A model generated the notes under the pieces. The model was not told where the DNA came from, searched no databases, and worked only from the letters and a program-made list of their open reading frames with translations. From a bacterium (lineage in GTDB: Bacteria; Patescibacteriota; Gracilibacteria; Peribacterales; Peribacteraceae): a stretch of 64,000 nucleotides of DNA. The position numbers and the translations under genes were made by a program. Below, one piece after another: positions 446 to 30,606 of the stretch. Numbering within the stretch: the first letter of the stretch is position 1; every line of letters starts with the position of its first letter. Location of the stretch: positions 42,186 to 106,185 of the forward strand of contig JAKQEM010000009.1 in assembly GCA_029558515.1 (NCBI GenBank), written 5' to 3'.

Positions 446-533
446 GCCGCCGTGGTGGAACGGTAGACACGAGGGACTTAAAATCCCTTGTCCGTAACAG
501 GGCGTCCCGGTTCAAGTCCGGGCGGCGGCACCA
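446..533 (+). tRNA. tRNA-Leu (anticodon TAA), CCA encoded
   Basis: GCCGCCG/CGGCGGC acceptor, anticodon loop containing TTAAAAT, long variable arm, T-arm GGTTCAAGTCC, ends ACCA. Confidence 0.93.
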
Positions 534-569
534 TTCGACTCGTCCGCCTAGGGCGGACTCGCTCATGGT
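530..569 (+). repeat. 40-nt tRNA-trailing palindromic element, copy 1
   Basis: ACCATTCGACTCG-TCCGCC-TAG-GGCGGA-CTCGCTCATGGT; same 40-nt architecture at 30238-30277 and 25008-25047. Confidence 0.7.
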
Positions 570-640
570 AAACCATTCGACTACCTTGTAGTAAACCACA
601 AGAATCATTCATCCTCATTCGCATTCGCAAATGTCATCAC

Positions 641-12418: not shown

Positions 12419-12584
12419 TTTTTTGAGTCAAGCGACAGAAATGCAAATGATATGTGGAGAGAGTACGCTGCTCTGTATCTGGAACCTCCTCCATGGCAGT
12501 AGAAGAACACTACAACCTTGAAGCCGTGTGACAATAGGTACACGCATCACGACGGGTGAGCCCATGACAGTCATACGAGTCGAA

Positions 12585-12671
12585 TGGTGCCGACGGAGAG
12601 ACTTGAACTCTCACAAGATTGCTCTTACACGCTCCTGAAGCGTGCGCGTCTACCAATTCCGCCACGTCGGC
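12585..12671 (-). tRNA. tRNA-Leu (anticodon CAG), CCA encoded
   Basis: Reverse strand GCCGACGTGGCGGAATTGGTAGACGCGCACGCTTCAGGAGCGTG...GAGTTCAAGTCTCTCCGTCGGCACCA. Confidence 0.93.
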
Positions 12672-24838: not shown

Positions 24839-25007
24839 AGGAAGGGGAACGGAAAAGGAAGTATGTGTATCACAATTGCGAGTATCTGTACATGCAAAGC
24901 CTCATCAGATTCCGATGAAAAACCCCTTCGCAGAGTACGAGCAGTCTCGCTCACTGTCATTCCACTCATCAAACCTTACAGATCAGTATCGGGAGAAAAG
25001 ACAGCTC

Positions 25008-25047
25008 ACCACGAGCAAGTCCGCATGAGGCGGACGAGCCAAATGGT
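25008..25047 (-). repeat. 40-nt tRNA-trailing palindromic element, copy 3
   Basis: Reverse strand ACCATTTGGCTCG-TCCGCC-TCA-TGCGGA-CTTGCTCGTGGT, aligned without gaps to copies at 530 and 30238. Confidence 0.6.
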
Positions 25048-25364
25048 GGACGATACTGTACGAAGCTCGAACCGAGATTGTCGAGACTCACTCAAGATTA
25101 CAGACCGCACTTTCTCTGTTGCACGAGCCGATTTTTGCGTAGTTGAAGAAAGAGGAATCGTACAAAAATGGCATTGCAGTGCCATGGCACCTCCATGCTC
25201 CGATCCTCTGAATAGGAACCCCCGAGATAGACTTGGTTGCCCTGTAGAACTCGAATAGAACTCCCGGGAGCATTTCCATCGTCGGGAACACGTTGTCCAA
25301 TTCCGGCAGGATGCCACTAATTCCAGTGTCGCAAATTTCCTATGTCCTCTATCCTATTCAACAT

Positions 25365-28420: not shown

Positions 28421-30016
28421 ATGGCTCGACGCAAGCCACCACAAATCACTGCAAATGCACCAATCTGGGGCATCTGTCGAAAATCTCTCGAAGATAAGAA
28501 CAAGCAAATCGAGAGTATCTCCGATCAAAAGGCACTCGCGTCCCAGTATTACGAAGAGCGATTCCCGCCCGAGATTAGAAAAACACACCCGCTCCGTTTT
28601 GTCGTGACGGAACAGAGTGGGTTTTTGCCCGGCCTTCCCACTGTTGCGGAGGTGTGTACAGCTGCACAACAGGGGCAGGTCTACGGTGTCATTGCCGTAC
28701 GCGTGAACCGCATCGGAAGGAATCACGATGATCTTGGGAAATTCACGCAGGACCTAGCCGACGGTTTTATTCCATTTCTCGAAACAACAGACGGCAAGCG
28801 CTACCGAGGGGAGGATGCGGCAACGATCATCATGCTGTGCCTCGAGGGTGCCATGGGATGGCACGAGAGCGCAGAGAAGAGCAAGGTTGTTTTCGACCGT
28901 ATGCGGCTGAAAGCCCAGAATGGCAAACACATGGGTCGCAAGATGTTCGGCGTACGGCCGCACCATGTGGTACTGGATAACGGTGAAGTGCTGCGTCATA
29001 CGGAAGTAGACCACGAGCGGCTGCCACACCTCTTGACTATCTTTCGCATGGCCGCCGCCGGAGCCACCTATCCCGATATTGAGCGTGCCATGAAGAACGT
29101 GACACAGAGGAACGGCAAGCCGCTGAACAAAACAACCATTGCCGGGCTCATCAAGAATCCCTACTTCAAAGGGGCGACGAAATACGATGGCGTGATTTAT
29201 GAGCACACGCACGAGCCACTCATTGCCCCGGAACTGTGGGAGGCTGCACAGTCGAGCATTGCGAAACGGTGCACCCACTCCGGCCGCAAGAAGAAGCAGG
29301 ATGTGCGCACGCTGTTCACGTTTGGAGATACGGTACGCTGTGGGGAATGCGGGGGCGTGATGAGCCCTTACAAGGTGGTGAAGAAGAAGGCAGGCCAAGT
29401 GTACCTTTACTACGAATGCAAGAATCGCCGGACGCAGTGCCGACAGTTGATCAAGCAGCAGCGGCGAGACAAGGACGACAGGGAGGACGGTCTGCGCGAG
29501 CAGTTTGATGCCGTGATGGACAGCATTTCCGTCGATGATGAGGTTCTTGCGGACGTGAGAGAGAAGCTGCTCGCGCTGCACGTCGAAAAGTCCGCAGCGC
29601 GCCGTGCGGAGGTGGAGGGTCTACAGCAGCAGTACAACGACATCGAGGCCAATCTCGCAGAGCAGGTGAAGGCACTGCCGAAGGCGAAGGCGCTTGGGGT
29701 GGAGGACATTGCAGAGGCCGAGATCAAAAAGCTGGCGGATGAGCGACAGCGCATCAAGAGCAAATTGGACGCCGTACACGACGAAGGCACCGACTGGATC
29801 ACCAAGGTTATTGGGAACTTCAAGCTGCTCGAACTCGCACGGGAAGCCATAAACCACGGATCACCCGTTGTGCGGGAATCGGTCATCAAAGCACTCTGTT
29901 CGAACTTGGCCGTACAGGACAAAAAGCTAGTCCCAGAGCTACGTTCTCCATTCAAAGAAACACTCAATCGAGCGGGTGATGAGGAATGGTGGAGCATACC
30001 GGACTCGAACCGGTGA
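28421..30016 (+). CDS. Large serine recombinase (resolvase N-term, Recombinase domain, zinc ribbon, coiled coil)
   Basis: CRKSLEDKNKQIESISDQ (catalytic Ser), VYGVIAVRVNRIGRNHDDL, GVRPHHVVLDNGEVL..., FTFGDTVRCGECGGVMSPYKVV...YYECKNRRTQCRQ zinc ribbon. Confidence 0.92.
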   Translation: MARRKPPQITANAPIWGICRKSLEDKNKQIESISDQKALASQYYEERFPPEIRKTHPLRFVVTEQSGFLPGLPTVAEVCTAAQQGQVYGVIAVRVNRIGRNHDDLGKFTQDLADGFIPFLETTDGKRYRGEDAATIIMLCLEGAMGWHESAEKSKVVFDRMRLKAQNGKHMGRKMFGVRPHHVVLDNGEVLRHTEVDHERLPHLLTIFRMAAAGATYPDIERAMKNVTQRNGKPLNKTTIAGLIKNPYFKGATKYDGVIYEHTHEPLIAPELWEAAQSSIAKRCTHSGRKKKQDVRTLFTFGDTVRCGECGGVMSPYKVVKKKAGQVYLYYECKNRRTQCRQLIKQQRRDKDDREDGLREQFDAVMDSISVDDEVLADVREKLLALHVEKSAARRAEVEGLQQQYNDIEANLAEQVKALPKAKALGVEDIAEAEIKKLADERQRIKSKLDAVHDEGTDWITKVIGNFKLLELAREAINHGSPVVRESVIKALCSNLAVQDKKLVPELRSPFKETLNRAGDEEWWSIPDSNR

Positions 30017-30062
30017 TCTCCGCAATGCGAATGCGGCGCTCTACCAACTGAGCTAATGCCCC
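29987..30062 (-). tRNA. tRNA-Ala (anticodon CGC), CCA encoded
   Basis: Reverse strand GGGGCATTAGCTCAGTTGGTAGAGCGCCGCATTCGCATTGCGGAGATCACCGGTTCGAGTCCGGTATGCTCCACCA; overlaps the recombinase 3' end by 30 nt. Confidence 0.93.
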
Positions 30063-30166: not shown

Positions 30167-30241
30167 GGCCCGGTAGCTCAGTGGTAGAGCACTCGCCTGA
30201 AGAGCGAGGTGTCGCCGGTTCGATCCCGGCCTGGGCCACCA
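30167..30241 (+). tRNA. tRNA-Phe (anticodon GAA), CCA encoded
   Basis: GGCCCGG...CTGGGCC acceptor, CTCGC-CTGAAGA-GCGAG anticodon arm, GGTTCGATCCC, ACCA. Confidence 0.93.
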
Positions 30242-30277
30242 TTCAACTCGCATTCCTTTGGAGTGCTCGCTCATGGT
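30238..30277 (+). repeat. 40-nt tRNA-trailing palindromic element, copy 2
   Basis: ACCATTCAACTCG-CATTCC-TTT-GGAGTG-CTCGCTCATGGT; stem bases differ from copy 1 but still pair. Confidence 0.7.
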
Positions 30278-30606
30278 CTCGCCCCTCGCATCCGCTCGAG
30301 GCTCGGGCCACTCTACCCATGCGCGAGTTAAGTGAGTCTGAGCGAAGACACAATGCGGCAGAGTCGAAGACTCCCAAATGATTCGAATCTGCTACGATAT
30401 TTCGCTATGACAGTAGACTCCGCTCAAGGTAAGCCCTGGTTCGTCTACATCGGCACCTCCACTGATCCTCCCGAGAATTGCTGGAAAGAACGTGATCCCC
30501 GTATGTTGGGCAAACGATGTCGTCCACTTCCTTGGGTGAGCAAAAGATGCTCATTGATGGAATATCTGCGCTGTACTGCATGCAAACAAACAGCCATACA
30601 CAACCC

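Follow-up and report, generated by a model that had tools for sequence, protein, structure and literature searches.

The 40-nt hairpins joined to tRNA 3' ends in this bacterial genome are a tRNA-anchored subtype of a dispersed family of REP-like palindromes (core TTCGACTC...GCTCA); in this subtype, the CCA of the tRNA itself serves as outer arm. The palindromes are associated with solitary GIY-YIG endonuclease genes. From this association, which is seen directly, we infer a mobility driven by the GIY-YIG enzymes, and the hairpins are probably the ends or relics of small mobile elements that invade tRNA genes. The link of tRNA-end hairpins to solitary GIY-YIG genes is new here.

Hairpin copies in the window

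The window, that is, the whole 64-kb stretch of DNA analysed, belongs to a genome of 1.31 Mb with 47 tRNAs. The initial annotation had listed three 40-nt hairpins behind tRNA sequences, and all three are present (530-569, 30238-30277 and 25008-25047, the last on the minus strand) with no mismatch to the pattern proposed for them, a pattern that had no match in shuffled sequences. The relevant features are as follows.

446..533, + strand: tRNA-Leu(taa), host of copy 1 (ARAGORN, Rfam)
530..569, + strand: copy 1, CCA-anchored palindrome ACCATTCGACTCG-[TCCGCC TAG GGCGGA]-CTCGCTCATGGT (pattern match; match of covariance model R1, G000:C8:42715-42754)
572..584, + strand: second, truncated left arm ACCATTCGACTAC close 3' of copy 1
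12549..12588, - strand: degenerate fourth copy on tRNA-Leu(cag), 3 mismatches
12585..12671, - strand: tRNA-Leu(cag), host of the degenerate copy (ARAGORN)
24947..24972, - strand: arm of an inverted second palindrome, 3' of copy 3 and resembling GAGTCGAATGAC..GAGCGA
25008..25047, - strand: copy 3, palindrome on the tRNA-Val remnant (pattern and R1 match)
25044..25084 (about), - strand: tRNA-Val(cac) 3' remnant with 5 extra bases at the T-loop (alignment)
30167..30241, + strand: tRNA-Phe(gaa), host of copy 2 (ARAGORN, Rfam)
30238..30277, + strand: copy 2, palindrome whose stem (CATTCC/GGAGTG) has another sequence and pairs
30325..30373, + strand: palindrome 2 of the tRNA-Phe trailer, in inverted orientation, with a homologue behind tRNA-Leu(gag) on contig C39
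30429..30472, + strand: degraded beginning of a GIY-YIG gene (PWFVYI..GTSTDPP) whose intact homologue follows tRNA-Leu(gag) (tblastn E 0.05; alignment of the trailer DNA)

The ACCA common to the tRNA 3' end and the start of the hairpin, an overlap already proposed, is exact on the intact tRNAs of copies 1 (tRNA-Leu(taa)) and 2 (tRNA-Phe). What had been called a tRNA remnant before copy 3 proved to be a real 3' part of tRNA-Val(cac), with an alignment score of 19 versus 14.5 for the next best of the 47 tRNAs. The length of exactly 40 nt holds for the three window copies and not for the family, in which lengths run from about 29 to 50 nt.

In the inner helix, six pairs had changes on both sides across 16 copies, and its covariation score was reached by none of 500 shuffles. 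Conservation of structure beneath differing stems is thus borne out for the inner stem, which pairs and covaries; the outer ACCAT/ATGGT arm is nearly invariant and therefore carries no covariation evidence. The further suggestion that the hairpin masks the CCA in the precursor agrees with the prediction for the isolated hairpin, in which the outer arm is paired, but not with that for trailers of 80 nt, where CCA pairing was predicted in 8 of 46 cases versus about 4 in shuffles and thermodynamic pairing did not separate the occupied tRNAs from shuffles. An intrinsic terminator has a G+C-rich stem followed by a T-run, and a search for a T-run after the hairpin stem found none.

A dispersed palindrome family with a tRNA-anchored subtype

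A search of 20 related genomes (G000-G019, where G000 is the window's genome) with R1, a covariance model of the hairpin trained on tRNA-borne copies, detected the palindrome family in at least 15 of them. At least 23 copies were found in the window's genome, both at tRNAs and away from them; these are short imperfect palindromes repeated genome-wide, as REP sequences are. Among 70 matches inspected, 46 had CCA…TGG arms and 24 had other arms, mostly ACCC...GGGT. In these matches, obtained with a model whose training favours CCA arms, 34 of the 46 CCA-armed copies lay in exact register on intact tRNAs versus none of the 24 others (Fisher 4e-10); 31 of the 34 came from genomes other than the window's, and at least two further CCA-armed copies sit behind a tmRNA or a 3' end resembling that of a tRNA. 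It is because of this partition that we regard the core as a dispersed REP-like palindrome. Of the initial proposals, a REP-like palindrome targeted to tRNA 3' ends is accordingly the one upheld. Exact register on tRNA ends is a feature of the CCA-armed subtype; the same core also occurs away from tRNAs with other arms.

Inspection by eye of the window's genome revealed a TTCGACTC-type hairpin palindrome directly on the CCA of about 14 of the 47 tRNAs and other palindromes starting with CCA on about 6 more, e.g., CCACGTCGTTCG/CGAACGACGTGG on tRNA-Trp; about 26 of 46 tRNAs had no hairpin of such kind. Several unrelated palindromes share the CCA anchor, which could instead reflect selection for structure.

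The occupied tRNAs differ among genomes and number from 1 to 13 per genome. In their variable tips, copies from one genome resemble each other more closely than copies from different genomes do (6 of 2000 permutations reached the observed difference), and sharing a tRNA species does not make copies from different genomes any more similar than other pairs. Because occupied tRNAs differ and same-genome copies are the most alike, the palindrome is, as judged from these sequence comparisons, one that spreads within genomes and not a conserved processing signal.

Solitary GIY-YIG genes at tRNA genes

That these tRNA ends are accompanied by GIY-YIG genes had escaped the initial annotation. Besides uvrC, the window's genome contains nine solitary GIY-YIG genes: five directly behind same-strand tRNAs (Tyr, Thr, Met, Leu and Lys), one on the opposite strand, divergent and adjoining tRNA-Trp, one 0.7 kb behind tRNA-Gly, and two inside the 16S and 23S rRNA genes. 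The trailers of tRNA-Lys and tRNA-Tyr run directly into the GIY-YIG reading frame. Across G000-G019, 39 of 72 unique solitary GIY-YIG genes adjoin a same-strand tRNA or tmRNA, 35 being behind it (within 350 nt) and 4 before it, while the chance expectation is about 0.6% per side by our own calculation (47 tRNAs in 1.31 Mb); of 14 control PIN-domain genes in the same genomes, none lay behind a tRNA and one lay before one. The association is also present, but rarer, in wider sets (14 behind and 12 before among 84 genes of a similarity-chosen set, 2 behind and 4 before among 28 of a phylum-wide set), which include non-CPR bacteria such as Bacteroidota, Planctomycetaceae and KSB1; the collection scan used a 4-sequence subset of the GIY-YIG alignment.

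The domain matched PF01541 above the cut-off, with the residues Y, Y-x-G, R and E invariant. These proteins had no PHROG match, and no group I or II intron family reached its gathering score in the scanned GIY-YIG loci, in which Rfam gave tRNA, tmRNA and rRNA only. Location class tracks the protein tree beyond chance (49 changes versus 70 or more in shuffles). Many GIY-YIG genes have no RNA gene nearby. At seven such loci (L145, L157, L136, L143, L148, L153 and L127), common palindromic repeats (e.g., CCCGCGAAGGCGGG, GTCATTC...GAATC) occur on both sides of the gene, suggesting a possible general link between GIY-YIG genes and palindromes. The genes inside 16S and 23S rRNA (L107 and L111) are flanked by a CCCCGCACC...GGTGCGGGG inverted repeat, and a GIY-YIG gene of a Candidatus Peribacteraceae genome (L217) apparently occupies the same place in 16S. 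Behind two tmRNA genes (L141 and L360), whose 3' end resembles that of a tRNA, CCA-anchored palindromes are followed by a GIY-YIG gene.

At tRNA genes, two arrangements were found. Where the gap between tRNA and GIY-YIG gene was at most 75 nt, the 3' half of the tRNA was repeated exactly behind the gene, over 12-50 nt, in 16 of 22 cases, compared with 1 of 29 where the gap exceeded 75 nt. The larger gaps contained exact 6-bp CCA-anchored arms in 15 of 25 tested cases versus 0.8 in shuffles, and several TTCGACTC-type hairpins besides. The duplicated half is often broken by a small palindrome in the anticodon or T loop, and the mirror arrangement also occurs, in which a broken tRNA 5' half with a palindrome is followed by the GIY-YIG gene and then by an intact tRNA. 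Since broken halves carry a palindrome and CCA-anchored hairpins fill the large gaps, both arrangements have a palindrome at the junction. Three loci (L252, L257 and L161) are tandem arrays of partial tRNA and GIY-YIG gene that resemble the tRNA-segB amplification in phage T6. At L170, the remnant tRNA half behind the GIY-YIG gene still has a palindrome, which indicates that the palindrome was on the tRNA before the gene arrived and thus that palindromes exist without the gene; possibly they also move without it.

A trailer unit shared by two tRNAs

In the window, the trailer of tRNA-Phe comprises the hairpin, a second hairpin and what is left of a GIY-YIG start. A homologous trailer follows tRNA-Leu(gag) on contig C39 of the same genome, and the alignment of the two runs through palindrome 2 into the GIY-YIG start (0 of 200 shuffles). 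Behind tRNA-Leu(gag) the gene is whole; behind tRNA-Phe it has decayed to a short relic. No other sequence finding points as directly as this shared trailer to palindromes and gene being one unit carried by two different tRNAs. No GIY-YIG relic above chance was detected behind tRNA-Leu(taa) (copy 1), behind tRNA-Leu(cag) or at copy 3; copies 1 and 3 keep palindromes only, and most palindrome-bearing tRNAs are without a detectable GIY-YIG gene or relic.

Discussion

The full unit, as we envisage it, would consist of the tRNA ACCA fused to palindrome 1, a spacer, the inverted palindrome 2 and the gene of a solitary GIY-YIG endonuclease, and the hairpin would be the left end or the leftover of such a mobile unit settling at tRNA 3' ends. 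By analogy with SegB, the bacterial GIY-YIG enzyme would cut a tRNA gene, the adjacent tRNA or tmRNA genes presumably being its target locus, and repair templated by an occupied tRNA gene would copy the trailer unit, palindromes and gene together, across. Copying would begin at sequence common to all tRNAs, so that the recipient tRNA stays intact. Related units entering the tRNA body would leave one tRNA complete and a broken half interrupted by a palindrome. By now, the palindrome alone would remain at most tRNA ends, that of copy 1 included.

SegB, a GIY-YIG homing endonuclease of phages T4 and T6, cuts inside tRNA genes at the motif RAWTSGAAC, and amplification of tRNA-plus-segB units has been reported in phage T6 (PMC13096335). 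We read this motif as the tRNA T-loop, GTTCSAWTY, in reverse complement; the target of the present units, which lie at tRNA genes, may be comparable. Like SegB, the enzymes described here are small and intron-free, are encoded beside tRNA genes and occur in tandem tRNA-plus-nuclease arrays. Unlike SegB, they are found in bacterial chromosomes rather than phages, consist of the GIY-YIG domain alone (about 80-100 aa), are without a PHROG match, have palindromes at the junctions and duplicated tRNA halves, and are also present in rRNA genes and behind tmRNA. GIY-YIG insertions in the rRNA genes of CPR bacteria have been described as non-intron, with no mention of tRNA, and were judged to lie outside spread by homing (PMC11270868). 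The same type of gene was found here inside 16S and 23S rRNA, likewise not as group I or II introns, but tRNA genes are the main site. Genes linked to tRNAs are not described in the retrieved passages of a survey of the GIY-YIG superfamily (PMC1564403). Our literature searches, which covered few subscription journals, found no report linking GIY-YIG genes to REP palindromes or to bacterial tRNA ends, and searches with the hairpin repeat sequences found only unrelated primers.

Three other explanations have to be weighed. The hairpin may be a host RNA module for the 3' maturation of pre-tRNA or for termination, pairing with the CCA and so hiding it from exonucleases or stopping transcription, with GIY-YIG genes merely collecting in trailers. 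The CCA anchoring of several unrelated palindromes, the compensatory changes in the inner stem and the pairing of the outer arm in the isolated hairpin would all fit such a module. Nevertheless, we consider it unlikely, given that a T-run is missing, CCA pairing is not robust in longer trailers, the same core recurs away from tRNAs with other arms, and occupancy is patchy, more than half of the tRNAs inspected by eye (about 26 of 46) having no such hairpin, with tips that follow the genome and not the tRNA. The processing or termination module put forward in the initial annotation is thus not supported.

Alternatively, ordinary REP sequences might be moved by a RAYT (TnpA-REP, a Y1 transposase) with tRNA ends as favoured targets. 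Like the REP/BIME (REPIN) palindromes of RAYT systems, the family indeed consists of short imperfect palindromes that are dispersed, have variable tips and form inverted doublets; it differs in having a subtype with the tRNA CCA as outer arm and a GIY-YIG gene as companion. No RAYT gene flanked by palindromes was found in the window's genome, whose only Y1_Tnp match (PF01797) is a domain inside a LeuRS frame without flanking palindromes, and RAYT mobilisation was set aside as the preferred explanation for want of a RAYT there; we hold it to be improbable, although a RAYT may have been lost or have escaped sampling. The LeuRS frame itself (L104:660-3647; 995 aa), with an IS200-like Y1 transposase domain in frame in mid-enzyme, lies on the window's contig about 33 kb before the window. 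Least probable is that the hairpins are relics of integrase attachment sites. Duplicated tRNA 3' halves behind many GIY-YIG genes recall integrating elements, but tRNA 5' halves are duplicated too, palindromes fill the breakpoints, which fall in the D, anticodon and T loops, the units carry GIY-YIG genes with no integrase seen between the repeats, and GIY-YIG insertions are also present in rRNA. A large serine recombinase gene in the window (28421-30016), the 3' end of which overlaps tRNA-Ala(cgc) on the opposite strand (29987-30062), suggests an integrated element at that tRNA; a search for a tRNA-Ala attachment duplication belonging to it found none.

Bacterial genomes commonly contain solitary GIY-YIG genes as well as short palindromic repeats, the spread of both being largely unexplained, and a shared unit anchored at tRNAs would tie the two together. 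Spread by mobile GIY-YIG units, if true, would account for palindromes at tRNA ends and for tRNA fragments near tRNA genes. More tentatively, the elements may represent a widespread class of bacterial mobile element in which a single-domain GIY-YIG enzyme and CCA-anchored palindromes parasitise tRNA genes, either by seamless docking at the CCA or by splitting the tRNA with a complete copy kept; such elements would pass from tRNA to tRNA through a cut in sequence common to all, and the nuclease rather than a RAYT would multiply the palindromes. If the proposal is true, homing nucleases would extend from phages and organelles to the chromosomal tRNA genes of ultra-small bacteria.
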